48,765 nucleotides of DNA from Bacilli bacterium. Its GTDB lineage: Bacteria > Bacillota_I > Bacilli_A > RF39 > UBA660. This document shows, piece after piece, positions 30,876-48,475 of this stretch; position 1 is the stretch's first letter, and each line of letters starts with the position of its first letter. The notes under the pieces were generated by a model. It had not been told where the DNA came from. It ran no database searches and worked only from the letters and a program-made list of their open reading frames with translations. A program made the position numbers and the translations under genes. Location of the stretch: NCBI GenBank assembly GCA_017938725.1, contig JAGBAW010000013.1, positions 1 to 48,765 of the forward strand, read 5' to 3'.

Positions 30876-31289
30876 ATGAAGTTAATTATAAAAGATAAAA
30901 ATGTATATCGTATAAATAAATTTATTGATTCTCTTTTATATATATTTGGATATACATTAGTATTATTTTTAGTGGACATGATATTTAATTCATTTGATAT
31001 AGATAATTATTGGTTTGGACTTTTAGCAGTTATTATAATATATATTTTAAATAAAACTATAAAACCAATAATAGTTAAATTAACTTTACCAATAACGGCA
31101 TTAACGCTTGGGTTATTTTATCCGTTTATTAATTTATTTATATTAAAAATTGTGGATTTTATACTTAATGACCATTTTCAAATATATGGAATTGTTAGTG
31201 GTATACTAATTGCTATCTTTATTAGTATAATGAACTTTTTTGTAGAAGAATTAGTTATAAAACCAATAATAAGAAGGTGTGATAAATGA
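30876..31289 (+). CDS. Phage-holin-4/YvlD-like small membrane protein
   Basis: 137 aa with four hydrophobic segments (about residues 18-38, 46-62, 72-96 and 104-128). The family pattern LNKTIKPIIVKLTLPITALT followed by LGLFYPFINLFILKIVDF matches the YvlD/phage holin family 4 domain (loop, TLP, TLG, then a helix with Asn). In Bacillus yvlD lies near uvrA and lgt, the same neighbourhood as here. The function is not firmly known; YvlD homologues are associated with envelope stress. It overlaps lgt by 4 nt (ATGA). Confidence 0.8.
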   Translation: MKLIIKDKNVYRINKFIDSLLYIFGYTLVLFLVDMIFNSFDIDNYWFGLLAVIIIYILNKTIKPIIVKLTLPITALTLGLFYPFINLFILKIVDFILNDHFQIYGIVSGILIAIFISIMNFFVEELVIKPIIRRCDK

Positions 31290-32071
31290 ACCGAGTAGCA
31301 TTTTCTATATTTAATATTAATATATATTGGTATTCATTATGTATATTAGTTGGAGTTATAGCTGCATATTTTTTAATAACTAATGAATCAAAAAAGCATA
31401 ATATAAATAAAGATACTATAAATGATTTAATATTTTATACATTAATTATGGGTATAATTGGTGCGAGAATTTATTATGTTTTATTTAATTTAGATTACTA
31501 TACTCAAAATCCATCTGAAATATTAAAAGTATATAATGGTGGGCTTGCAATTCATGGTGGAATAATATTTGGTATTATATTTGTATATTTCTATTGTAAA
31601 AAAAAGGGTTTAGGTTATCTTAAAATATTAGATATATGTGCTCCCGCAGTAATGCTAGCGCAGAGTTTTGGTCGCTGGGGTAACTTTTTCAACGGGGAAG
31701 CACATGGATTTGTAACTACACTTGAAACACTTAAAAATATTCATGTACCACAGTTTATAATAGATGGTATGTTTATAGATGGTAATTATTATTATCCAAC
31801 TTTTTTGTTTGAAAGTATCTGGTGTATAATTGGGTTTATCATATTAATGATTCTTAGAAAAAGAAAAAATATTAAATTAGGGATTCAAATTGGATTATAT
31901 TTTGTATGGTATTCTGTAGGAAGATTCTTTATTGAATCACTTAGAACTGATAGTCTAATGTTATTTAACTTAAAAATGGCCCAAATAGTATCGGTAATTG
32001 GTATGGTTTTAGGAATTATATTAATTATATCATCTAAAAAAAGAGAAAAATATAATGATATAGGAAGGTGA
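31286..32071 (+). CDS. lgt: Prolipoprotein diacylglyceryl transferase
   Basis: Lgt transfers diacylglycerol from phosphatidylglycerol to the lipobox cysteine of prolipoproteins, the first step of lipoprotein maturation. 261 aa with seven membrane segments. The conserved HGG segment is in NGGLAIHGGIIFG, and the Lgt signature is GRWGNFFNGEAHG with its essential arginine. A late GRFFIESLRTDS segment is typical. The start overlaps the upstream gene (ATGA); its stop TGA is inside the ribosome-binding site of the next gene. Confidence 0.96.
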   Translation: MNRVAFSIFNINIYWYSLCILVGVIAAYFLITNESKKHNINKDTINDLIFYTLIMGIIGARIYYVLFNLDYYTQNPSEILKVYNGGLAIHGGIIFGIIFVYFYCKKKGLGYLKILDICAPAVMLAQSFGRWGNFFNGEAHGFVTTLETLKNIHVPQFIIDGMFIDGNYYYPTFLFESIWCIIGFIILMILRKRKNIKLGIQIGLYFVWYSVGRFFIESLRTDSLMLFNLKMAQIVSVIGMVLGIILIISSKKREKYNDIGR

Positions 32072-32075
32072 TAGT

Positions 32076-32939
32076 ATGTTTGATACTATTATTATAGGAT
32101 GTGGTCCCGCTGCAATGAGTGCTTCTATTTATTTAAAAAATGCAAATAAGAAAGTATTAATAATTGAAAAAAATGCACCTGGTGGGAAAATATTAAAAAC
32201 TGAAAAAATAAATAATTATTTAGGGTTTAATGAGGAAGATGCAAGTACCCTTGCTTATAAAATGTATGATCAAACTAATAAACTTGGGATACCTATTAAA
32301 ATAGAAAAAGTAATTGATGTAAAAGATTCTATTGATAAAAAAATAGTAACTACAGATAAGAATAAATATGAAGCTAAAACAATATTAATCGCATGCGGAA
32401 GAGTAGAAAAACCACTCGGAATAGAAAATGAGGATAAATTAAATGGACATGGTGTAAGTTATTGCGTTAAATGTGATGCATCTTTATATAAAGATAAGAT
32501 AATAGCTATTGTATCAAATACCATTGATGATGTTTTATACTTAAGCGATATTGCATCAAAAGTAATATTTATTAATAATTCAAATGAGATTTTTAGCATT
32601 AAAAGGGATAATATAGAAGTTATTAATAATGAAAAAATAATAAAAATAAATCAGAAGGATAATGTGATTAGTAGTATAACCTTGTCAAATAATAATGAAT
32701 ATAATATATCATGTTTATTTATTGAAACGGGATATACGCCTAACATTGATTTTATAAAATCATTAAATATTGAAACAAAAAATAATTATATTATAACGGA
32801 TGATGAGATGAGAACAAATATAAATGGTATTTATGCATCAGGCGATATAGTTTATAAGAAAGTTTATCAGATAATTAATGCTGCATCAGAGGGGGCTCTT
32901 GCGGCATTATCAATAATTAAATATTTGAATAAGGAGTAA
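32076..32939 (+). CDS. Thioredoxin reductase-like flavoprotein with degenerate NADPH site
   Basis: 287 aa, short for TrxB (about 310-320). The FAD-binding GCGPAA motif is at residues 8-13. The redox-active pair is Cys130-Val-Lys-Cys133, where most TrxB have CATC. The second FAD motif TNINGIYASGDI is present. At the NADPH site, usually GGGDSA, the sequence is KIIAIVSNTIDDVLYL (141-156) with no glycine motif, and the HRR that binds the 2'-phosphate is replaced by NNSN. FAD binding and the disulfide are expected to work, but the electron donor may not be NADPH. Ferredoxin-dependent clostridial enzymes with similar losses are a precedent. It occupies the trxB locus, 5 bp before whiA. Confidence 0.88.
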   Translation: MFDTIIIGCGPAAMSASIYLKNANKKVLIIEKNAPGGKILKTEKINNYLGFNEEDASTLAYKMYDQTNKLGIPIKIEKVIDVKDSIDKKIVTTDKNKYEAKTILIACGRVEKPLGIENEDKLNGHGVSYCVKCDASLYKDKIIAIVSNTIDDVLYLSDIASKVIFINNSNEIFSIKRDNIEVINNEKIIKINQKDNVISSITLSNNNEYNISCLFIETGYTPNIDFIKSLNIETKNNYIITDDEMRTNINGIYASGDIVYKKVYQIINAASEGALAALSIIKYLNKE

Positions 32940-32944
32940 TAATT

Positions 32945-33883
32945 ATGACATTTTCCGGAAAAATAAAACAAGAAATATCAAATTTGGAACTATCAAAATT
33001 AGAATATATTTCAGAGTTATCAGGTATATTTAGAACAAGTGCAGATATAAAATTATATAATATAAGGGTTCAAACTGAAAATATAAATGTTGCTAATAGG
33101 ATATTTAAAATAGTTAAAAATATTTATGGTGTAACATCAAATATAACCATAAAGAAAAATTATAACTTTAAGAAAAATGAATTATATATAATAGAAATAA
33201 AAAAAGATGTTTTAAAGATTATTAAGGATTTAGGTCTTTTAAATGAACAAGGCTTTGAACTTTTAAAAATTCCTAATGAATTTATTGTTTCCGATGATGA
33301 ATTAAAAAGGGCATTTATTAGAGGATGCTTTCTTATAAGTGGAAGTGTTAATGATCCTAAAACATCAAGATACCATTTAGAGTTCTTAATAGACGATATT
33401 GATTTTGCTAATTTTTTATGTACACTATTGAATGAATATGATTTAAATTCAAAAGTACATAGAAGAAAAAAAGGTTATATGGTATATATAAAAGAATCAG
33501 AAAAGATAAGTCAACTTCTTGCAATAATAAAAGCATATGAACAAGTATTATATTTTGAAGATATACGAATATATAGGGAAAAAGTAAATATGTCTAACAG
33601 AATTAATAATTGTGAACAGGCTAATATAGAAAAAAGTATGAAATCTGCACTAAAACAAATAGAAGATATTAATTATTTAAAGCAAATAGATTCTTATGAT
33701 CTACTTGATGAAAGGGTAAAAGAGGTTGCGGATTATAGAATTAAGTATCCAGAGAGCTCATTAATAGAATTAAGTGAAATAATTAGTATAGAGACTAATT
33801 CAAAAATGACAAAGTCATGTATAAATCATAGACTTAGAAAAATAAGAGAACTAGCTGAAAAATCTAGAAATAATGGGGAATAA
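32945..33883 (+). CDS. whiA: DNA-binding protein WhiA
   Basis: WhiA is a conserved Gram-positive regulator/nucleoid-associated protein linked to cell division. 312 aa. The homing-endonuclease-like (LAGLIDADG-type) N-terminal domain includes AFIRGCFLISGSVNDPKTS. The C-terminal helix-turn-helix includes LIELSEIISIETNSKMTKSC and NHRLRKIRELAE. AAGGAG at the end of the preceding gene is its ribosome-binding site. In Bacillus rapZ and mgfK (yvcK) lie between trxB and whiA; here the two genes are 5 bp apart. Confidence 0.96.
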   Translation: MTFSGKIKQEISNLELSKLEYISELSGIFRTSADIKLYNIRVQTENINVANRIFKIVKNIYGVTSNITIKKNYNFKKNELYIIEIKKDVLKIIKDLGLLNEQGFELLKIPNEFIVSDDELKRAFIRGCFLISGSVNDPKTSRYHLEFLIDDIDFANFLCTLLNEYDLNSKVHRRKKGYMVYIKESEKISQLLAIIKAYEQVLYFEDIRIYREKVNMSNRINNCEQANIEKSMKSALKQIEDINYLKQIDSYDLLDERVKEVADYRIKYPESSLIELSEIISIETNSKMTKSCINHRLRKIRELAEKSRNNGE

Positions 33884-36013: not shown

Positions 36014-36054
36014 TAAAAAAATTCATTATTTAATATGAAAAAGTGCTATAAATG

Positions 36055-36063
36055 TGATATAAT
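36055..36063 (+). promoter_or_regulatory. Extended -10 promoter of the giant surface protein gene
   Basis: TGATATAAT (36055-36063), identical to the uvrA motif. The predicted start is about 36070, downstream of the in-frame ATG at 36035. AGGAG (36076-36080) follows, giving ATG 36089. Confidence 0.55.
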
Positions 36064-36088
36064 TTTATATATAATAGGAGAGTCGTAT

Positions 36089-39000
36089 ATGGGAAAATTA
36101 AAAGAGAGAAAATATAAAATATTATTAGCGCTTATAGCGGTCTTAATATCAGCAATTATAATAAATAGAATTGGTTTTTTAGACATGCATAAAAATGAAG
36201 CAAGTATAGGCAAGGTATTAGTTAATAGAATAAATTCACTTAGTGCAAATATTAATGACAACATAGTCAACGCCTATGATGAAATAAACTATAAAATAAA
36301 ATTTAATTTAGATAGCAAGGAAGACTTAGAAAGAACTGTAAAAATAAATGTAACATTATCAGATGAAGAATCTAAATATATAAAATTTAAGGAAATAAAT
36401 GGTAATAATATTTCATCAAAAATAAGTGAAAATCAGAAAAACCTAGAAATAACAATGATGAAAGTTAGGACTAATGAAGAAACTAAAGTAAATATAACAC
36501 TACTAGTATCTGGTGCTCCAAATAATTTAAAAATAAATCCTATAGTTAGTATAAAGGAGGAAACGCAAGAAAATCAAACAAAAATATCAACTGATGCATT
36601 GATTGTAAAAACAAATAGTGTTCAAGGAAAAGTATTAGATAGTGATGGTGCAAAAGTAAGTAACATAGAGCTTTCATTAAAAAAAGAAAATGAAGAGATA
36701 AAAAGAACATATACAGACGAAAATGGTAATTATATATTTAGCGGACTAGAAGAAGGATTATATAATATTGGATTAGAAGAGAAAGATTATATATTAGAAA
36801 GCGAAAATAAAATAGAAATAAAAGAAGGGACATCACTAAATTTAGTAGTAAGAAAAGTAAACCCATATAATATAGAAACATCAAAGACAATAAGTAGATT
36901 AATAATAAAAAATAATGGGAAAGAAGAAACATATACATATAATGATTTAGAAAAAGTAGTACAATCAATAAAAGAGTTAAAAGAAATAGAAGGTGAAATA
37001 ACATATAAAATAACAGTAACAAATACTGGAGAAAAAGAGGGTATAGTAGAGGTAGTAAAAGATATAATCCCATCTGGACTTAATTTTAACAAAGAAAAAA
37101 ATGAAGGATGGGAAGAAAATAAAGGCATCGTATACAATAGAGAACTAGAGGGTATAAAATTAAGAAAAAATGAGAGTAAAACAGTAACATTAAAATTAGA
37201 CATAGCAAAGACAAAGGAAGCAAAAAATTATATAAACAATGTAACAGCATATGGAGAAGTATACAATAATATATCTTATGTGATAGATAATAAGGCATAT
37301 AAAGAAGAAAGAGTATTAGAAGGAGATAAACTAATAAAACCGATAATAGAAATAGAGGGTTTTGATGGATGGTATACGGATAAGAACTATACAAATAAAT
37401 ATAATTTCAATAATATTGTAACAAAAGATATTATACTTTATGGGAAAATTAATAGGGAAAAGGAAAAATTTAACGTAACATTTATAGATGATGGGAAAAT
37501 AATAGAAACAAAAAAGGTAGAAAGTGGAGATAAGATAGGACAAATATCTAATCCTTCAAAAGATGGTTATACATTTATAGGATGGTATGAAGAAGATTCT
37601 GAAAATTCATTTGACTTTGATAAAAGTATAGAAAGAGATGTAACATTATACAGTAAATATGAAATAAATAAATATAATGTAACATTTATAAATGAAGGAA
37701 AAGAATATGATAAGCAAGAAGTAGAATACAAATCTAATATTAATGAAATTACAACACCAACAAAGGAGTATTATACATTTAAATATTGGAGTTTAGAAAA
37801 AAATGGTCAAAAGTACGATTTAACTTTACCAGTAACAGACAATATTACATTATATGCAGTATATGAGATAAATAAGTATGATGTTGTATTTATTGATGAT
37901 AATAATGAAATAAGTAAAGATAACGTAGAAGCAGGTACTATATTAATTGCTCCAAAGGTAGGTAAACAAGGATACACATTTAAACACTGGAGTACAAGTA
38001 TAAATGGAGAAGGTTATGATTTAACCATGCCAGTAACAAGTAATATAACACTATACTCAGTATATGAAATAAATAAATATAATATAGAGTTTTATGATTA
38101 TGAAAATAATATAATAAAAACATTAGAAAAAGAATATAATAAGACATTAGTATTAGATGAAGCACCAAGTGTGGAAGAAGAAGGCTACACATTTACAGGT
38201 TGGTATGAATTACTTTCAAGTACGCCATATGATTTTAATTCTAAAATAACAAGAGATATAAAATTATATCCAAAACATGAAATTATAAAAAATGCAGTAA
38301 CATTTAATGATGAAAATAAAATAACAAAACAAGAAGTAAATTATGGAAGTAATGCAAATGAGATAGAATCCTTGGGTAAGGAAGGCTATACATTTAAATA
38401 TTGGAGTATAAGTATAAATGGAGAAGCATTTGATTTTAGTACACCAATAACAAATGTAACAACATTATATGCAGTATATGAAATAAATAAATATAGAGTA
38501 ACATTTATAAATGAAGGTGTAGAATATAATAGTCAAGAAATAAATTATAACAATCAAATAAATACTATAGAAAATCCAAGTAAAGAAGGCTATACATTTA
38601 AATACTGGAGTACAAGTGTATATGGAGATGCTTATGATTTAACTACACCAGTAACAAATGATATAACATTATACTCAGTATATGAAATAAATAAATATAA
38701 GATAACATTTAAAAATTATGATGGAAGCATACTTCAAGAAGAAACATTAGAATATGGAAGTACTCCAGCATATAAAGGAGAAACACCTGTAAGAGAAAAA
38801 ACACAAGAGTACACATATACATTTAGCGAATTTACACCTAATTTACAGGTTGTTAGAGAAAATAAGGAATATGTGGCACAATTTACTTCAACTAAAAATA
38901 AATATAAAATAACATTTGCAAATTATGATGGAAGCATACTTCAAGAAGAGGACTTAGAATATGGAAGTACTCCAACATATAAAGGAGAAGCACCTATAAG

Positions 39001-42000
39001 AGAAAAAACACAAGAGTACACATATACATTTAACGGATTTACACCACAAATAACCAATGTAACAGGAGTGTTTACATATATTGCAAGTTATACATCTACA
39101 AAAAATAAATATATAGTAACATTCATGGATGGTGATAATATATATGCAAGTATTGAAACAGAATATGGTGAAAGCGTAAATAGAGTTACCGATCCAAGTA
39201 AAGAACATAATATATTTAGAGAATGGAAATTAAATAATGAGGTATACGATTTTAATAGCTTAGTAACTGATAACATAACATTATATAGTAGTTATGAACT
39301 AGTAGAAAAACCAGTTGTTACACGTACACCTGATGGATGGGTAAAAGACAAAGTAGTTGTTAATATTGCAAGCAATCATGCTGATTATTCATATAAATAT
39401 AAAATAGATGATGGAACATATATTGATTATACTAATGAATTTGAAATATATGAAAATTGTACTATTACTGCTAAATCAATAAAAGAGAATGTAGAAAGTC
39501 AAATAACTACATATGAAATAGATAATATTGATAAAATAAAACCAGCATTAAATATGTTTGAATCTGATAATATTACAACAAGTGGATTTGATGTTAACAT
39601 TAAAGCTATAGATAACGAATCGGGATTATATCAAATAAAAGTATACTTAAATGATGAACTTAAAGAAACATACTCATATATAACAGGTTTAAATGATGAA
39701 AAAAGTGAAACTTATACATTTGAAAATTTACAAGAGGATACAACTTATAAAATAAAAATTGAATTAGTTGATAAAGTAGGTAATGTTATTTTATCAGAAG
39801 AAAAAGAAGTCACTACCTTAAGAAGAATAATAGTAGCAAGAATAATTGGCAGAAATAATTCTTTATATGAAAGTGTTGATAATTATGAACTGTTTGAAAG
39901 TTTATCTGAAGCTATAAATGCATGTTCTAATAATCAGTGTACTATTCAAATGACACTTAATGTAAATGAAAGTGTTGAAATATTGAATGAACAAAATATT
40001 ACCTTTGATTTAAATGGAAAAATGGTCGAAGGCACTAGAAATTATACAATTTCAAATTATGGTAAGTTAATAATTATTGATAGTAATGAAAATCCGGGCA
40101 AAATAGTTAATAAAAATGAAAATGCAATCATAAATCAAAGTAGTGGATTATTAGGATTAGGGATTAATGATGGGATTGTTTCTAAAGAAGTGCCAAATAT
40201 TACCGGAACAACATATGGAATATATAATACAGGAACATTTAATTTCTATGATGGTAAAATAGAGGGATTAAGTGCAATATATGGTGATATTAATGATACA
40301 CCATATTCATATAATGCATCTATAACAAACACAACGCATGAAATAGCAACATTAAATCAAATTGCTGATCCAGAGGCAAGAATAATTGGAGGGGCATATT
40401 ATTCTCAATTGAAATCTGCTGTTTCACAGACAGAAAATGGAAACTATGAAGAAGTGGATAATAATACATCACTTATGCAAAGTGCTGTTCCAACTAGTGG
40501 TATTGGGGCAATATATGATGAAGAAACTGGTAAACTAGTTATGAAAGCTATGAGTTCTACAAATTTACAATCATCTTATATAAAGATAGATTTATCAAAT
40601 TATAAAGATAATCAAAGATTAACTATTAATATTGATAAAACTGGCTTTAATAATGCATATTTAACAATTAAAGATACAAAGTCTGTACCAAGTTACAATG
40701 ATGCAAGTGGAAGATTTATGTACTTGGAATATAGTAAAAATGCATATCAAAGTGACTATAGCACTCATCTTCAGGCTGGTAAAATATACTATTTACATAT
40801 TGGATATTATGGGCAAAGTACAAGTAATAGTGATACGTTTGTTATAAATAACATAACTCTTACTAATTACACAAGTGAAAGTGTTAATATAAAGGATACT
40901 CTTAAAAAAGAAGGCGATTATGGATTTATATATGATGAAAGTACGGATAGTTATATTTCAACGAATTCAGGTGTTTCAAATTCTACATCAATATCATACT
41001 TTAAGGTTGATCTACTAGATAAGTCTGAAAATATTAATATAGTTATGAATGCACAAATATCTAGTGAATCTCATGATTATGGATATATAGTTTTAAAAAA
41101 ATGTGATATAAATAATAACTGTAGTGAATCACAAAGGTATAGAAACTCTGGAAAATCATCAAATGAAGTTACTATCCAATTAGAAGCCGGCAAGATTAAT
41201 TACATTTATTTAAAATATCAAAAAGATAGTGGGACTGATTCTAATGATGATAAATTTACCATTAGTTTTGTAACTGATGTGAAAGATTTGTTAATAAATC
41301 AAAATCAATTTCATGAGACAACAAATAAAACTGATAAAAATAAAGTTGTTGTTTTAAATAGTAAGGTAGATACTTTACAGCTACTTAAGAATGTAACTGT
41401 AACTGAGCCAATAGATGTTGTAGAAACAAGAGAAATGATTTTAGACTTAAATGGTAATACGTTGGATTCAAATACATCTGATTATGTTATAAAAAATAGT
41501 GGAACCCTTACTATAGTTGATAATAAATACAATTCTGATATAGAAAGTGCGGAGGAAAACTATAAAACTACTCAAGCAAAATATGACGATGAGTACGCTA
41601 AAGCTTTAGAAAAGTATAACAAAAATAAAGAGGAATACGAAAAAAAGCTAGAGGAGTATTATGCAAAAAATAAGGTAATAGAATATGGATATACGGGAGA
41701 TTATCAAGAGTATATAGTTCCTGAATCCGGTAGGTATAAAATTGAACTTTGGGGAGCATCTGGTGGTAATTCTATGGCCAATGGTTCTATTGGCGCACAA
41801 GGTGGACTTGGAGGATATACGAAGGGTGAAATTAATTTAGAAAAGGGTCAAAAATTATATATCTTTGTAGGTCAAAAAGGAACGGATGCCCTTGTAGGTA
41901 AAGATTCTGAAGCATCGTATAATGGTGGTGGACTTGGTACATGGGATAACCATGATGATGAAGCTGCAGGAGCTGGTGGTGGTGCAACAGATATAAGATT

Positions 42001-45000
42001 ATTTCAAGAAAATGGTATGTGGAGTAATTTTGACTCATTAAAAAGCCGTATTATGGTTGCTGGTGGTGGTGGAGGAGCCTCATGGACAACAAATGGAGGG
42101 AATGCTGGAGGACTTAATAGTTATAGCAGTAATCCGTCCGCTTCAGAAGCAACTCAAACAAGCGGTTATAAATTTGGAATTGGACAAAATGGATCTGGGA
42201 CAGGAGATGGTGATGGTGTAGCTGGTGCTGGATCAGGATACTATGGTGGAACTACAAGTGGGAATAGTTCTGGAAAAGAAACTGGTACTGGGGGTTCATC
42301 ATTTATATCAGGGTATGATGGATGTAATGCTATTGGTGAAGAGTCTACAGAAGATAGTATAGTCCATACTGGGCAATCAATTCATTACTCTGGATTAGCA
42401 TTTACTAATTTTGTTATGAAATCAGGAAATGATGAAATGCCAACTACAGATGGGGCTAGTTCTATGATAGGTAATTTAGGTAACGGATATGCAAAAATTA
42501 CAAGACTTGAAGTACTAGAGACAGGAGAAGAAATAGAAAAGCCGGTTAATCCAAATATAGATGAAACACCAGAAATGGCAATCTCTAATTTTACATATCA
42601 AGGTAATGGTAAAATGACCGTCAATAATAATTTATTAAATTCATATGTAAATAATCAAAATAATAAGTCAGTAACATATTATAATAAAAAAATAACTGTA
42701 AAAGATGAGGATCAAATATCTGTAAAAGGTAATATATATTTATATCAAAATTACTCAAGTAGTAATTATTCACTTGGAACGGCTTATATAGGATTTTCAA
42801 AAACAAATGAAGCAAATATTGATGATTTTGACTCATTTGTAGAAAAAGATATAAATTCGTATATTTCAAATGCACAGATGGATGATTTTTCAATAACAAT
42901 AGATGAACCTGGAGAATATTATTTTAAAATTGTATTATTTCATAATACAAATATAAGTCGTTATACTGTATATTCTGATTTATGCAATTTAAATATTACA
43001 AATAAACCTGAGTTAAAACATGCTATAAAGCAGGATGTTACTTTAACAGGAAACATTACAAGTACAACAAGCTCATTAATATATAATGACAATAATGCTA
43101 ATTTGAATATATCTTCTGGTATTTTAAAAACAAATAAATCAGGTGATTATTCGGCTATTATAAATTATGGAAATGTTTCAACAGGGATAGATAGTTATAT
43201 TGATGTTAATCAATCAGGAAATTATGGTATTAAAAATTATGGTAATGGAAGTTTAAATGATATAAAAGGTTTAATTAGTTTAAGTAATTCATCTACTGGT
43301 ATATATAATATGTCATCAATTAAAAAGTTAAGTAATATAACTATTGATACTAAGGATAATACAGGATTAGGACTATATAATGAGTCACATAGTGATATAG
43401 AACTTGAAAATTTAGATATTAAAGCGACTAATTTAATTTATAACAAATATGCGAATATGACTATAACAAGTGGGGCTTATAGTAGTACTGGTAACTATAA
43501 TAATGAAGCTATAAGAAATGAACATGGAATTATAAATATAAATGGTGGTGTATTATCCGGTAATATAAAAAATAACGATGAATCCATTATTATAATAAAT
43601 TCAGGTGAAATATCGGGAGACAACCTTGTAACTAACTATAATAGCACAACAACTATAAATGGTGGGATTATAAATAATCGAATATCAAATACAGGTTTAA
43701 CAACTATAAATGGTGGAACTATAAATAATCAGATAGTTAATGACAGAGAAGATAGCGCTGTTGTTAATATAAATGAATCTGCAGTAATAAACGTTTCTAA
43801 TAATGAGGCGATAAGAAATGTATCTGGAACTATAAATATAAATGGTGGCATTATAAATCATAATAGTTCAAATCATGCTGTTATTTATGTTTTTTCTGGA
43901 TCAGTAAATATTGGTAATAAAGATTCTCTAGTAGAAAGTGGCCCAAAAATAACGTCAAATGGTAACGGAATATCATTCTATGATAATAATAGAGTTAAGA
44001 TTGTAAATTTCTATAGTGGAGAAATAACAGCAAAAAAAGGCATGATATTATCTAATGCTATTATAAATGAGGTAAGAGAAGGATATGATATTAATATTGA
44101 AAGTTATAATAGTGATGAAGAATTAGAAATCCTAACGTTAAAAGCACCAACAGATTATGTAGCGCAGGTAGGAGAAACTAAATATGCTAGTTTACAAAGT
44201 GCAATTGATAGTATTAATGATGCTAATGATTCAACAATAACAATATTAAAAGATATAACTACAGTATTACCTATAAATAATACTAAGAGTGTAGAAATAG
44301 ATCTAAATGGTCATAATATAAGAAATTATGGTAATAATACATACTTAACAAATGAAGGAATACTAACAATAAGAAATAGTTCAGAAACAGATTCATCAAT
44401 AAAAACTCAGAAAAGAACTATATTAAATGATAGCTCAATTAAATTAAATAATATTACAATTGGTTCGTTATTAGAAGGACCGATATTAAATCATAACTCA
44501 TTTACTTTAGATAGTGGCTATTTAACTTATTATGGATCTTTAGATTCCATTAAAGTTATAGAAAGTATAAAAAATAATGATGAAGTTAATCCAAAGATAA
44601 CTATAAATGGTGGTACTATAGATACAACAAGTCAATCTGGTGATGGCATATATGCACAGGATACAATAGTAAACATGAATAATGGATTAATAACAGAAAG
44701 TAGGAAATATTATCAAAGAGGAATATACATATCATCAAATTCAAAATTATATATGAATTCAGGAGAAATATCAGGTAGATTTTATCCAGGTGCTATTGTA
44801 AATGATGGATATGCTGAAATATTAAACAATTCTCATGTATATAGAAATTATGATCAGAGCCAACCTGCTATAGATAACAGAGGTAATTTAGTTATAAATG
44901 GTAAAGACGTTATTATAGAATCAAAAACTGCTGGTGTTGCAATCAAAAATAATTCCGAAGCAATATCTAATATATATAGTGGAAGTATATTGACTCAACG

Positions 45001-48000
45001 AGATTCTGCTATAGAAAATTATGGGACTTTAAATGTCGGAACGAAAGGTGATTTAGATAGCGATGGGAATATGATTGTATCAAAATCTGATCCAGAAATT
45101 AAAGGTAATACTTATGGTGTTAATAATCAGTCTGGTGGATTTAATTTCTATGATGGAATAATAAAGGGTAAAACAAACGCTATATATGGTAGTGTAGTTG
45201 AAATAGAACGAGGATATGATATTGTTACTGATATGTTTGATGGTTATGAGGCAAAATATTTAGATAAGTTCCCTATGGTAGCTATAAAATCTACAAATAA
45301 GGAATATTATGATTTACAAGATGCGATAAATGAGGTATCAATAACTGGTGATACAATTACTATGCTTAGAGATGCTAGTAATATTCAAAGCAATGAATCA
45401 ATTATTATTCCAAATGATAAAGATATAATACTAGATTTAAATGGGAAGACAATAACTGTTTCAAATGAGTTATATTTAGTTAATAATGGTAAATTAACGA
45501 TTACTGATTCAAATGGAAATAATACTGGTATTATAACGAGTAAATTATCAAAATTAATAGAGAATAATGGTGAGTTAACAATAGAAAATACAAAATTAAA
45601 CTCTGATTCAAATATTATAATAGATAATAAAAATATATTGAATCTTAATGATTCAATATTAACAAGTGGTTCAAATATTGTGTATAACTATACAGATTCT
45701 AATTTATATATTAATGGTAGTACACTTACAAGTACTTCAACATCATTATATAATGAGGAAGGAGCTTATGTAAAAATAGATGGTTCATCCACTAATGTAC
45801 AAGGTCGTGATTCTGTTGCGATAGATAACAATGGGGATCTTGTCATAGATGATGGTACAGTTGATGGAAAAACTGGTAATTTAGCAGTAAAAGTAGGTCA
45901 GACAGGTACTTTTACATTAAATGGTGGAACAATTATATCTTCTTCTAAATATGAATATGCATCAGTAACAAACTATGGTATATCTATAATTAATAATGGT
46001 AATATAGCATCAGGTAAAATTTATAATTATAATGATCTTACAATAAATGGTGGAACTGTTTCGGGTGTTACTAATGAGAAAAACTTTGTAATGAATGGTG
46101 GAACATTAAGCAATTATTCACCATATGCGAAACCACTAACAAATAGTAATGCAGGTACTTCAACTATTATAGGAGGAGAAATAACTGGTGATACTTATGA
46201 CGGATATACAGTAAAAAATGATGGTATATTAACTCTTGGAATTAAGGGCGATATTGCTGAAGATAATAGTTTAAATGTATCAACAATTAGCCCAAGTATA
46301 ACAAATACAAATATAACAAATAATAGCTCTATAGGTATAAACAATAAAGGTACATTTAATTTCTATGATGGAAGAATAACTGCTCATGTAGCAATAAGTG
46401 GTAACATAACTGAAATAGAATCAGGGTATGAGGTAATAACTGAAACTGATGAAAATAATCGTGAAGTAAAATACTTATCTTTATTACCTCTTGTAATAAA
46501 TGCTAGAACAAATAAAGAATATTATAGTTTGCAAACTGCAATAGATGAATCAAATAATGGCGATACACTTAAAATAACAAGAAATATTACTAATATATCA
46601 ACTGATAGTATAGTAAATATACAACGAGGTAAAAACATTACTATTGATCTTAATGGAAAAACAATAACATCATCAATAGAATATTATTTAATGAATAATG
46701 GTGAATTAACTTTAACTGATAACACGAATTTAGGAATGATTTATAGTAGTAATCAAAAGATAATATTAAATAATAATATATTAAATATAAATGGTGGAGT
46801 ATATAAATCAGACTATAATATTGTACTTGAAAATAGTGAAAGTGCAAAGATGATACTTACTGGCGGAACAATAACGGGGACTAATAATAATGATTCAACA
46901 AAAATTAGTAATTTAGGATATATTAAGATTAATGGTGAAAATGTATTAATAACATCTAGACGTAGCCCTGCTATTTCAAATAATGGAACAATGGATATTT
47001 ATTCTGGCACAATAAGTCAATTAGATGAAAAAAATGATATTATAAATAATTCTGGTACATTAACTTTATATGGTGGAAATATTACTGGTACTTCAGGTTA
47101 TTCAGTTGTTAATTCCGGCACATTTGAAATGAAAGAAAATGCATCAATTGGAAATATTAAAAATAATAACATAGCAATAATGGACTCATCTAAAATAAAT
47201 TATATATATAATATGAAGAGTTTAACAATTAATTCTTCAAATATTAGTAATATTAACAATTCTAATGGTGAGGCTGTTATATCTAATAGTGAAATATATA
47301 AATTATCAAATAGTAGTGGAAATGTGCAAGTAAATAATTCTACAATAACAGGTGAAGTGTCTAATTATAACTTTTCATCTTCATTATTATTAAATAATTG
47401 TATAACTTCTAATTTAAGTAATACTGGTAACACAATTGTTATAGGAGGATCTATAACAAGTAATACAAAAGAGGCAATAAATAATTCTGGTATATTAATA
47501 CTTGGTGAAAAGGATGGCAATATAATTTCTGATTCTCCAAATGTTACAGGTACAACTTATGGTATAGTTAACACAGGAACATTTAATTTCTATGATGGAA
47601 TTATAAATGGTAATATTGATAATGGTGCAATAAATGGACTTATAACTGAAATAGAAGATGGTTATAAATTAGTTACAAATACAGATAATAATATTATCAG
47701 TGCTACACTTTTACCAAAGGGTGAGGATGCAAGTGTAGCAAGAATAGGAAGTGTAAATTATAAAACCCTACAAGATGCAATAAATTATGCAATAAATCAG
47801 AGTGGGACTACAGATATAATATTAACAGCAGATATAGTTCTTGATTCTGATATAGTGATTGATAATAATGTAAAAATAAATATATATTTAGAAAATCATA
47901 CAATAACTGGCGGTACAGTAATTGGTGATGGAGTAAATATATTAGATAGTTCAAGTAGTGAAGGTTTATTATCGAGTATAATAAATGCTATAATGGGAGA

Positions 48001-48475
48001 AAAAACTATTATACAAAAGAATATAGTTATCTATCAAATGGATGATGGAGGTAACATATATGCAAATAATACATATAAGTTATATAAAAATATAGGTGAA
48101 GAATATAAACTAATAAGCTTTGAAAAAACTGATAGTTTAGGCATTTATAATAATGGAAATGAAATAAGTGAATTATATACAGCAAATAATAAATTAATAT
48201 TAAATAATTTATCTAATGGAAGCTATAAACTAAAGGATGATTCAGGTAGAAACTTAATATTTACTATTACAGATGAAGGAAAAATAATAGGAAATGTTAG
48301 GGAATATAAATCTTCCGAAGAGTTTAAGATAATATCAACTGCATTTGCTGAATTAATATTTACTGTACAGACAGGATCCAGCATTTCATTATATCCAGTA
48401 CTTATAATATTAATAATATTATTATTAATACTTGCATTTATTGCTCAAAAGCAAAGAAAAAAACTTAAATTATAG
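36089..48475 (+). CDS. Giant multidomain surface protein (4128 aa)
   Basis: Probably a cell-surface adhesin or matrix protein. Order of parts (residues from ATG 36089): signal/anchor helix 9-28; Ig-like region; carboxypeptidase-regulatory-like fold (about 186-255, GKVLDSDGAKV and YTDENGNYIFSGLEEGLYN); DUF11-like domain (about 290-400); InlB-type repeats (about 426-1073); Ig/FN3-like (about 1075-1247); a beta-helix module; two jelly-roll-like domains (about 1460-1735); a second module start; coiled coil (about 1816-1862); ALK-type glycine-rich domain (1865-2140); another beta-sandwich (about 2160-2310); four more Asn/Gly-rich beta-helix modules to about 3955; a SpaA-like domain; and a C-terminal helix with a basic tail. 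A TVQTGSS stretch precedes that helix in place of LPxTG. ATG 36089 was preferred over 36035 because of the promoter and AGGAG. No frameshift was seen over 12.4 kb. Ligand unknown. Confidence 0.93.
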   Translation: MGKLKERKYKILLALIAVLISAIIINRIGFLDMHKNEASIGKVLVNRINSLSANINDNIVNAYDEINYKIKFNLDSKEDLERTVKINVTLSDEESKYIKFKEINGNNISSKISENQKNLEITMMKVRTNEETKVNITLLVSGAPNNLKINPIVSIKEETQENQTKISTDALIVKTNSVQGKVLDSDGAKVSNIELSLKKENEEIKRTYTDENGNYIFSGLEEGLYNIGLEEKDYILESENKIEIKEGTSLNLVVRKVNPYNIETSKTISRLIIKNNGKEETYTYNDLEKVVQSIKELKEIEGEITYKITVTNTGEKEGIVEVVKDIIPSGLNFNKEKNEGWEENKGIVYNRELEGIKLRKNESKTVTLKLDIAKTKEAKNYINNVTAYGEVYNNISYVIDNKAYKEERVLEGDKLIKPIIEIEGFDGWYTDKNYTNKYNFNNIVTKDIILYGKINREKEKFNVTFIDDGKIIETKKVESGDKIGQISNPSKDGYTFIGWYEEDSENSFDFDKSIERDVTLYSKYEINKYNVTFINEGKEYDKQEVEYKSNINEITTPTKEYYTFKYWSLEKNGQKYDLTLPVTDNITLYAVYEINKYDVVFIDDNNEISKDNVEAGTILIAPKVGKQGYTFKHWSTSINGEGYDLTMPVTSNITLYSVYEINKYNIEFYDYENNIIKTLEKEYNKTLVLDEAPSVEEEGYTFTGWYELLSSTPYDFNSKITRDIKLYPKHEIIKNAVTFNDENKITKQEVNYGSNANEIESLGKEGYTFKYWSISINGEAFDFSTPITNVTTLYAVYEINKYRVTFINEGVEYNSQEINYNNQINTIENPSKEGYTFKYWSTSVYGDAYDLTTPVTNDITLYSVYEINKYKITFKNYDGSILQEETLEYGSTPAYKGETPVREKTQEYTYTFSEFTPNLQVVRENKEYVAQFTSTKNKYKITFANYDGSILQEEDLEYGSTPTYKGEAPIREKTQEYTYTFNGFTPQITNVTGVFTYIASYTSTKNKYIVTFMDGDNIYASIETEYGESVNRVTDPSKEHNIFREWKLNNEVYDFNSLVTDNITLYSSYELVEKPVVTRTPDGWVKDKVVVNIASNHADYSYKYKIDDGTYIDYTNEFEIYENCTITAKSIKENVESQITTYEIDNIDKIKPALNMFESDNITTSGFDVNIKAIDNESGLYQIKVYLNDELKETYSYITGLNDEKSETYTFENLQEDTTYKIKIELVDKVGNVILSEEKEVTTLRRIIVARIIGRNNSLYESVDNYELFESLSEAINACSNNQCTIQMTLNVNESVEILNEQNITFDLNGKMVEGTRNYTISNYGKLIIIDSNENPGKIVNKNENAIINQSSGLLGLGINDGIVSKEVPNITGTTYGIYNTGTFNFYDGKIEGLSAIYGDINDTPYSYNASITNTTHEIATLNQIADPEARIIGGAYYSQLKSAVSQTENGNYEEVDNNTSLMQSAVPTSGIGAIYDEETGKLVMKAMSSTNLQSSYIKIDLSNYKDNQRLTINIDKTGFNNAYLTIKDTKSVPSYNDASGRFMYLEYSKNAYQSDYSTHLQAGKIYYLHIGYYGQSTSNSDTFVINNITLTNYTSESVNIKDTLKKEGDYGFIYDESTDSYISTNSGVSNSTSISYFKVDLLDKSENINIVMNAQISSESHDYGYIVLKKCDINNNCSESQRYRNSGKSSNEVTIQLEAGKINYIYLKYQKDSGTDSNDDKFTISFVTDVKDLLINQNQFHETTNKTDKNKVVVLNSKVDTLQLLKNVTVTEPIDVVETREMILDLNGNTLDSNTSDYVIKNSGTLTIVDNKYNSDIESAEENYKTTQAKYDDEYAKALEKYNKNKEEYEKKLEEYYAKNKVIEYGYTGDYQEYIVPESGRYKIELWGASGGNSMANGSIGAQGGLGGYTKGEINLEKGQKLYIFVGQKGTDALVGKDSEASYNGGGLGTWDNHDDEAAGAGGGATDIRLFQENGMWSNFDSLKSRIMVAGGGGGASWTTNGGNAGGLNSYSSNPSASEATQTSGYKFGIGQNGSGTGDGDGVAGAGSGYYGGTTSGNSSGKETGTGGSSFISGYDGCNAIGEESTEDSIVHTGQSIHYSGLAFTNFVMKSGNDEMPTTDGASSMIGNLGNGYAKITRLEVLETGEEIEKPVNPNIDETPEMAISNFTYQGNGKMTVNNNLLNSYVNNQNNKSVTYYNKKITVKDEDQISVKGNIYLYQNYSSSNYSLGTAYIGFSKTNEANIDDFDSFVEKDINSYISNAQMDDFSITIDEPGEYYFKIVLFHNTNISRYTVYSDLCNLNITNKPELKHAIKQDVTLTGNITSTTSSLIYNDNNANLNISSGILKTNKSGDYSAIINYGNVSTGIDSYIDVNQSGNYGIKNYGNGSLNDIKGLISLSNSSTGIYNMSSIKKLSNITIDTKDNTGLGLYNESHSDIELENLDIKATNLIYNKYANMTITSGAYSSTGNYNNEAIRNEHGIININGGVLSGNIKNNDESIIIINSGEISGDNLVTNYNSTTTINGGIINNRISNTGLTTINGGTINNQIVNDREDSAVVNINESAVINVSNNEAIRNVSGTININGGIINHNSSNHAVIYVFSGSVNIGNKDSLVESGPKITSNGNGISFYDNNRVKIVNFYSGEITAKKGMILSNAIINEVREGYDINIESYNSDEELEILTLKAPTDYVAQVGETKYASLQSAIDSINDANDSTITILKDITTVLPINNTKSVEIDLNGHNIRNYGNNTYLTNEGILTIRNSSETDSSIKTQKRTILNDSSIKLNNITIGSLLEGPILNHNSFTLDSGYLTYYGSLDSIKVIESIKNNDEVNPKITINGGTIDTTSQSGDGIYAQDTIVNMNNGLITESRKYYQRGIYISSNSKLYMNSGEISGRFYPGAIVNDGYAEILNNSHVYRNYDQSQPAIDNRGNLVINGKDVIIESKTAGVAIKNNSEAISNIYSGSILTQRDSAIENYGTLNVGTKGDLDSDGNMIVSKSDPEIKGNTYGVNNQSGGFNFYDGIIKGKTNAIYGSVVEIERGYDIVTDMFDGYEAKYLDKFPMVAIKSTNKEYYDLQDAINEVSITGDTITMLRDASNIQSNESIIIPNDKDIILDLNGKTITVSNELYLVNNGKLTITDSNGNNTGIITSKLSKLIENNGELTIENTKLNSDSNIIIDNKNILNLNDSILTSGSNIVYNYTDSNLYINGSTLTSTSTSLYNEEGAYVKIDGSSTNVQGRDSVAIDNNGDLVIDDGTVDGKTGNLAVKVGQTGTFTLNGGTIISSSKYEYASVTNYGISIINNGNIASGKIYNYNDLTINGGTVSGVTNEKNFVMNGGTLSNYSPYAKPLTNSNAGTSTIIGGEITGDTYDGYTVKNDGILTLGIKGDIAEDNSLNVSTISPSITNTNITNNSSIGINNKGTFNFYDGRITAHVAISGNITEIESGYEVITETDENNREVKYLSLLPLVINARTNKEYYSLQTAIDESNNGDTLKITRNITNISTDSIVNIQRGKNITIDLNGKTITSSIEYYLMNNGELTLTDNTNLGMIYSSNQKIILNNNILNINGGVYKSDYNIVLENSESAKMILTGGTITGTNNNDSTKISNLGYIKINGENVLITSRRSPAISNNGTMDIYSGTISQLDEKNDIINNSGTLTLYGGNITGTSGYSVVNSGTFEMKENASIGNIKNNNIAIMDSSKINYIYNMKSLTINSSNISNINNSNGEAVISNSEIYKLSNSSGNVQVNNSTITGEVSNYNFSSSLLLNNCITSNLSNTGNTIVIGGSITSNTKEAINNSGILILGEKDGNIISDSPNVTGTTYGIVNTGTFNFYDGIINGNIDNGAINGLITEIEDGYKLVTNTDNNIISATLLPKGEDASVARIGSVNYKTLQDAINYAINQSGTTDIILTADIVLDSDIVIDNNVKINIYLENHTITGGTVIGDGVNILDSSSSEGLLSSIINAIMGEKTIIQKNIVIYQMDDGGNIYANNTYKLYKNIGEEYKLISFEKTDSLGIYNNGNEISELYTANNKLILNNLSNGSYKLKDDSGRNLIFTITDEGKIIGNVREYKSSEEFKIISTAFAELIFTVQTGSSISLYPVLIILIILLLILAFIAQKQRKKLKL
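37366..39305 (+). repeat. InlB B-type (Listeria-Bacteroides) repeat array
   Basis: Nine full units of about 65-70 residues follow a partial first unit. Each starts with K-Y-x-V-T-F, has a middle GYTFxxW and ends ITLYxxYEINKY. Starts read KFNVTF, KYNVTF, KYDVVF, KYNIEF, NAVTF, KYRVTF, KYKITF (twice) and KYIVTF. Several share long DNA stretches (for example GGCTATACATTTAAATA), indicating recent duplication or recombination. Confidence 0.85.
38693..39106 (+). repeat. Two tandem 207-bp units inside the giant gene
   Basis: Units 38693-38899 and 38900-39106 are each exactly 207 bp (69 codons) and nearly identical over their first 150 bp. Shared text includes ATTATGATGGAAGCATACTT and AGAGAAAAAACACAAGAGTA. 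They encode a variant repeat (NYDGSILQEE, YGSTP, REKTQEYTYTF) different from the neighbouring InlB units. Confidence 0.85.
39830..47950 (+). repeat. Reiterated beta-helix modules in the giant protein
   Basis: Six module starts are visible: near 39890 (LSEAINACSNNQ), 41360, 44160 (YASLQSAID), 45290 (YYDLQDAIN), 46500 (YYSLQTAID) and 47755 (YKTLQDAIN). Most modules have a D-L-N-G-K/N/H cap, then xNxGxLTIxDS, then rungs with NINGG or SG. Four copies end in GxFNFYDG (near 40237, 45140, 46351 and 47580) and share the 17-mer TTTAATTTCTATGATGG in DNA. A related variant is near 44000. Confidence 0.8.
41681..42508 (+). other. ALK/LTK-type glycine-rich domain within the giant protein
   Basis: Residues about 1865-2140. 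It begins EYGYTGDYQEYIVPESGRYK and continues IELWGASGG, GGLGGYTKGEINL, KLYIFVGQKG, AGAGGGATDIRL, RIMVAGGGGGA and GGSSFISG. This is the pattern of the glycine-rich domain of ALK/LTK receptors and bacterial homologues (Pfam Gly_rich type). It is preceded by a charged coiled coil. Base composition is locally richer in G than the rest of the gene. Confidence 0.75.

Follow-up and report, generated by a model that had tools for sequence, protein, structure and literature searches.

An lgt-linked thioredoxin reductase of RF39 Bacilli that lacks both NAD(P)H motifs: a candidate ferredoxin-dependent enzyme

The window analyzed here is a stretch of 48,765 nucleotides (contig JAGBAW010000013.1 of assembly GCA_017938725.1) from a member of the RF39 Bacilli whose genome comprises 1.07 Mb and is about 90% complete. 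It contains a structural gene for a trxB-like flavin disulfide reductase, which is preceded by the ribosome-binding-like sequence AGGAAGG and is the middle gene of a tight lgt-trxB-whiA string (Table 1). Promoter and terminator scans gave yields no higher than those in shuffled sequences. Further downstream, positions 36035-48475 are occupied by a single ORF of 4146 aa with a C-terminal membrane segment and, judging by eye, many InlB/Listeria-Bacteroides-like repeats; its product is a giant surface protein. The metagenome-assembled genomes of this genus are labelled uncultured Bacilli and several of them apparently come from rabbit gut, as their 'Lapin' names indicate.

Table 1. Genes of the lgt-trxB-whiA string and motif sites of the trxB-like product (positions in the window).
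Feature	Position	Strand	Basis or remark
lgt, upstream neighbor	31286..32071	+	TIGR00544, 221.6 bits; 4 bases from trxB
trxB-like flavin disulfide reductase, NAD(P)H-site-less	32076..32939	+	ORF, 287 aa
First FAD motif GCGPAA (GxGxxG, third Gly replaced by Ala)	32097..32114	+	Alignments
NYLG (canonical NYPG)	32214..32225	+	Same Leu in clostridial FFTRs
Redox-active CxxC, CVKC, residues 130-133	32463..32474	+	Cys130 codon TGC 32463-32465
Lost dinucleotide-binding loop site, SNTIDD vs GGG[DN]SA	32514..32531	+	Alignments
Lost 2'-phosphate clamp site, NNSNEIF vs HRRxxxR	32574..32594	+	Alignments
Second FAD motif ASGDI	32835..32849	+	Intact
YQ (Arg-Gln in canonical TrxB)	32865..32870	+	Marks lgt-linked lineage; also in clostridial FFTRs
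whiA, downstream neighbor	32945..33883	+	TIGR00647, 259 bits; 5 bases from trxB

By sequence and fold, the window protein is a low-molecular-weight thioredoxin reductase (TrxR), matched by Pyr_redox_2 with 121 bits. With canonical TrxB/NTR proteins it shares the fold (an AlphaFold model with a mean pLDDT of 90.5 matched TrxR structures at Z of about 36), the CxxC, the second FAD motif and the lgt-linked locus of motif-intact relatives, whereas it differs from them in having lost both NADPH motifs and in obtaining only 236.4 bits with the NCBIfam TrxB equivalog model TIGR01292, which is below the curated cut-off of 343.45. The original prediction of a redox-active Cys130-Val-Lys-Cys133 was confirmed, and both cysteines are invariant in all 134 relatives. 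Both FAD motifs had also been described as intact, which holds for the second, ASGD (residues 254-257, with G256 and D257 invariant in a 24-sequence alignment), but not for the first, in which the third glycine is an alanine. This glycine is replaced, by Ala or Ser, in just 3 of the 134 relatives, all of them from the subclade of the window protein, and this three-member subclade is exactly the one with the deepest loss of the NADPH site. The proposed replacement of the GGGDSA loop and the HRR clamp was borne out by alignment. Residues 147-152 read SNTIDD, the loop being three residues shorter than the GGG[DN]SA loop of relatives, and no glycine loop was restored when the sequences were aligned; residues 167-173 read NNSNEIF and are followed by a deletion of about 8-9 residues relative to relatives with HRRxxxR. 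The expected shortfall of about 25 residues was found in comparison with TrxB from S. aureus (PDB 4gcm chain, 312 aa as deposited), and relatives within the family exceed the protein by 11-15 aa. The protein has lost both NAD(P)H motifs while retaining the CxxC and, for the most part, the FAD motifs. The pattern of a TrxR-like ferredoxin-NADP reductase (FNR), in which CxxC is absent and NADP motifs are present, is reversed on both points in the window protein.

A search with Pyr_redox_2 (PF07992) detected one TrxB in the genome of origin and one in each of 7 other genomes of the genus. The other PF07992 matches in the genome of origin resemble MnmG, GpsA, HI0933 and DAO by sequence, and neither a second TrxR nor an FNR was found among the matches in this about 90% complete genome. 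The window enzyme is therefore the only thioredoxin reductase found in this cell, and the canonical TrxB elsewhere that would have spoken against the original prediction did not appear. The double loss of loop and clamp is common to 6 genomes of the genus, that of the window and 5 relatives, with one TrxB match each. Relaxed selection had been considered as well, and dN/dS values of 0.18-0.23 were obtained overall, about equal for the FAD and disulfide domains (L007, L008, and L009 compared). Values near 0.2 in both domains argue against decay of the gene, and the presence of the double loss in 6 genomes, together with purifying selection in the 3 comparable ones, indicates that this loss is not due to chance.

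Among thioredoxin reductases, the closest biochemically known match in terms of shared features is the clostridial ferredoxin-flavin thioredoxin reductase (FFTR; Clostridium acetobutylicum 6gna, 6gnb, 6gnc, and 6gnd; C. difficile TrxB1). Clostridial and DTR enzymes had been named separately in the original prediction; they form one group, as DTR has been renamed FFTR (PMC9025218). Like the window protein, clostridial FFTRs have about 287 aa, lack GxGxxA and HRRxxxR and keep the CxxC, and in 6gnc and 6gna the sequence INNYLG, LYK after the CxxC (PLYK/SLYK), the clamp deletion, and YQ in the FAD helix are found as well. They differ in that the PGG preceding the NYLG loop, kept in the window protein, is absent from 6gnc, and in that clostridial FFTRs usually occur beside an NADPH-type TrxB (PMC10880999), whereas here the enzyme is the sole TrxB found and lies at the lgt-whiA locus. 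A profile built from 5 members of the genus detected 6gnc at 184 bits, fifth of 174 PDB sequences, and 6gnc showed the highest identity (36%, 287-residue chain) among the Foldseek matches listed, with a high rmsd that is consistent with the open conformation seen in crystals of FFTR. The likeness of the working parts to FFTR, as read from these comparisons, is clear. Common descent is neither supported nor rejected: without the motif columns, identity to 6gnc is 36% as against 35% to several canonical relatives, and in the free tree FFTR joins two other proteins (L170/L171), although forcing it together with the window clade costs only 0.22 lnL units (p-AU 0.483). A match in an Acetoanaerobium plasmid record was rejected, as it is not an FFTR. 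The FFTR/DTR from Gloeobacter violaceus (5j60, 6xtf) is likewise free of NAD(P)H and a sole thioredoxin reductase, and it is driven by ferredoxin (PMC12796991, PMC9025218); its FAD potential of -448 mV suits ferredoxin and not NADPH (PMC12796991). Its identity to the window protein is 25%, its C-terminal Trp tail is missing in the window protein, and the Gloeobacter ferredoxin is of the [2Fe-2S] type, in contrast to the single [4Fe-4S] type encoded in the genome of the window.

Two types of TrxB are distinguished in the relatives by residues 264-265, which are YQ in one type and RQ (or another residue before Gln) in the other. The YQ type adjoins lgt in 53 of 54 loci, whereas lgt is not adjacent in any of 20 loci of the RQ/other type. 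Two members of the genus, G001 and G002, possess the RQ type alone, with intact NADPH motifs. When the 134 relatives were compared, the double loss of loop and clamp was confined to the YQ side, where 15 of 86 rows show it, as against none of the 48 other rows. On a tree built with the motif columns removed, the double-loss state changed at least 8 times, with supported branches alone forcing 3 changes, and the 6 genomes of the window clade formed one group (support 99/99). A single origin of all double losses is ruled out, one clade of all double-loss rows plus FFTR being rejected with a lnL difference of 113 and p-AU 5e-6. The linkage of the locus and the tree results together point to repeated loss of the NADPH site, in place, at an inherited locus. 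The best explanation for the window gene is that it was inherited, at its original site, from the ancestral copy in the lgt-trxB-whiA string of its lineage and is not a separate arrival; horizontal gain of a clostridial FFTR is unlikely, because the gene holds the same lgt-linked position as its intact relatives. The change from NYPG to NYLG, that is the loss of Pro49, tracks the double loss (Fisher p = 1e-7, from raw counts with few independent supported pairs on the tree). Partial states such as NRS, HRS, and GNS occur in many relatives, and a clade comprising L066, L067, L069, L071, and L084 at the lgt-trxB-whiA locus is half-lost, as it keeps GAGDSA and has NKYxKFK in place of HRRxxxR.

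The search for ferredoxin-reducing enzymes suggested along with the original prediction yielded a PFOR of 1137 aa in the genome of origin (L188:145-3555, TIGR02176 1424 bits). The same genome (G000) encodes a strongly acidic, single-cluster [4Fe-4S] ferredoxin (C19:710-880, PF13370 search) that matches [4Fe-4S] ferredoxins of known structure from bacteria and archaea, as well as a TrxA with WCGPC on C28 that scores over the cut-off (TIGR01068, 121 bits). The FAD domain of the window protein carries a net charge of +4, as against the acidic ferredoxin. A strong TrxA is encoded in all 6 genomes of the window clade, and a single-cluster ferredoxin in all 15 genomes searched (G000 and 14 others); as all of these carry the double loss, the presence of ferredoxin indicates compatibility and not association. 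The trxB-like gene is not genetically linked to those for ferredoxin, PFOR, and TrxA. A 2[4Fe-4S] ferredoxin (PF12838, outside PFOR), flavodoxin, and FeFe-hydrogenase (PF02906) were rejected as donors in the genome of origin, since none was found there, and flavodoxin (PF00258) gave no match above the cut-off in the whole genus. Loose cysteine patterns in the genome of origin gave PFOR as the only credible match; of the others, those read were antisense frames, and the remainder were judged by their codons. Of the 145 genomes of the family, 132 gave a PFOR match, and 3 double-loss genomes, G022 (L129), G066 (L017), and G122 (L117), gave none; because of this distribution PFOR was rejected as a predictor of motif loss, and because of the three genomes it is not a general partner. 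FeFe-hydrogenase was detected in only 2 of 8 genus genomes, G003 and G007 (L185, L186), and in G001, which has a canonical TrxB, a ferredoxin domain is fused to an apparent nitroreductase (L197:5656-6546).

The sole TrxR of this bacterium probably no longer uses NAD(P)H and works like an FFTR, with electrons that would pass from PFOR via ferredoxin to the enzyme and on to TrxA; donor, path of the electrons, and thioredoxin as substrate are predicted here by analogy. PFOR would oxidize pyruvate and reduce the small acidic [4Fe-4S] ferredoxin, reduced ferredoxin would hand single electrons to the FAD of the window enzyme, a domain rotation would let FADH- reduce the disulfide Cys130-Cys133, and the dithiol so formed would then reduce the WCGPC thioredoxin. 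The original prediction had left the choice between ferredoxin and another donor. Ferredoxin is plausible in view of the FFTR likeness and of the encoded PFOR, [4Fe-4S] ferredoxin, and TrxA, whereas the three double-loss genomes without a PFOR hit do not fit this chain as a whole.

Those three genomes would be accommodated if thioredoxin were reduced with electrons from another non-pyridine donor, be it a flavodoxin-like protein, PFOR itself, or a carrier not yet known. There is a precedent for this in the atypical TrxR TRi from Desulfovibrio (5nii), a NAD(P)H-free enzyme of an anaerobe that has also lost the NAD(P)H motifs and whose electron donor is unknown (PMC5627308). However, the signature TQ/NGK, which replaces HRRD in TRi, is absent from the window protein, which has NNSN instead, TRi reached only 95 bits with the genus profile, the genus lacks flavodoxin matches above the cut-off and a suitable ferredoxin is encoded, so that this alternative appears considerably less probable. 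Use of NAD(P)H through an altered binding mode is improbable. The protein retains its Rossmann-like domain, whose fold is predicted with confidence by AlphaFold, and the partial states of relatives could mark a changed specificity, but the glycine loop is shortened, the NNSN after the second strand offers neither a basic clamp nor an acidic residue for NADH, and in six species loop and clamp have been either deleted or replaced. Still a little less credible is the idea that the protein is no longer a TrxR and acts as a flavin/CxxC oxidoreductase on another substrate, like cyanobacterial DDOR. The motifs for contact with thioredoxin, stated as G[RK]G and FF for cyanobacterial FFTR (PMC9025218), are changed to GHG and LY in the window protein; however, LY is also present in clostridial FFTRs (6gnc has GKG and LY), GKG or GNG occurs in other members of the genus, and the clade encodes a strong TrxA throughout with no other TrxR match. 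Decay of the gene, through relaxed selection in a reduced genome, would agree with the small genome size and with sequence drift, but this reading is largely refuted already by the dN/dS values, the intact frame, the conserved operon position, and the invariant CxxC, and is very unlikely.

NAD(P)H-free TrxRs are already known from clostridia and cyanobacteria (FFTR) and from Desulfovibrio (TRi). In a survey of bacterial thioredoxin systems, Bacilli were assigned one TrxB of the NADPH type, and non-NADPH types were placed in Clostridia and Negativicutes (PMC10880999). None of the papers listed by a literature search that combined RF39 with thioredoxin or ferredoxin mentions RF39. New in Bacilli are an NAD(P)H-free enzyme as the sole TrxR and the recurrence of such losses at a single locus. 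If the FFTR-like working favored here applies, the whole thiol redox control of these anaerobic gut Bacilli would run on fermentation-linked ferredoxin, as their sole reductase is unable to bind NADPH in the usual way. The annotation of a gene as trxB by similarity does not imply that its product depends on NADPH. At this locus the site is intact in some close relatives, half-lost in others, and fully lost in still others, so that these relatives offer replicated natural intermediates for a change of donor in a flavoenzyme. A bolder and tentative suggestion is that in one anaerobic family of Bacilli a single ancestral lgt-linked TrxB might have exchanged NADPH for ferredoxin on many occasions without leaving its locus, converging on the residues of clostridial FFTR, and that the whole YQ lineage might already be ferredoxin-competent with a decaying NADPH site, thus forming a series of donor-switch intermediates. 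In two members of the family, the TrxB-like proteins L170 (G113) and L171 (G040) group with clostridial FFTR (support 89/94) and are possibly true FFTRs in Bacilli; G113 carries a canonical RQ-type TrxB besides L170.
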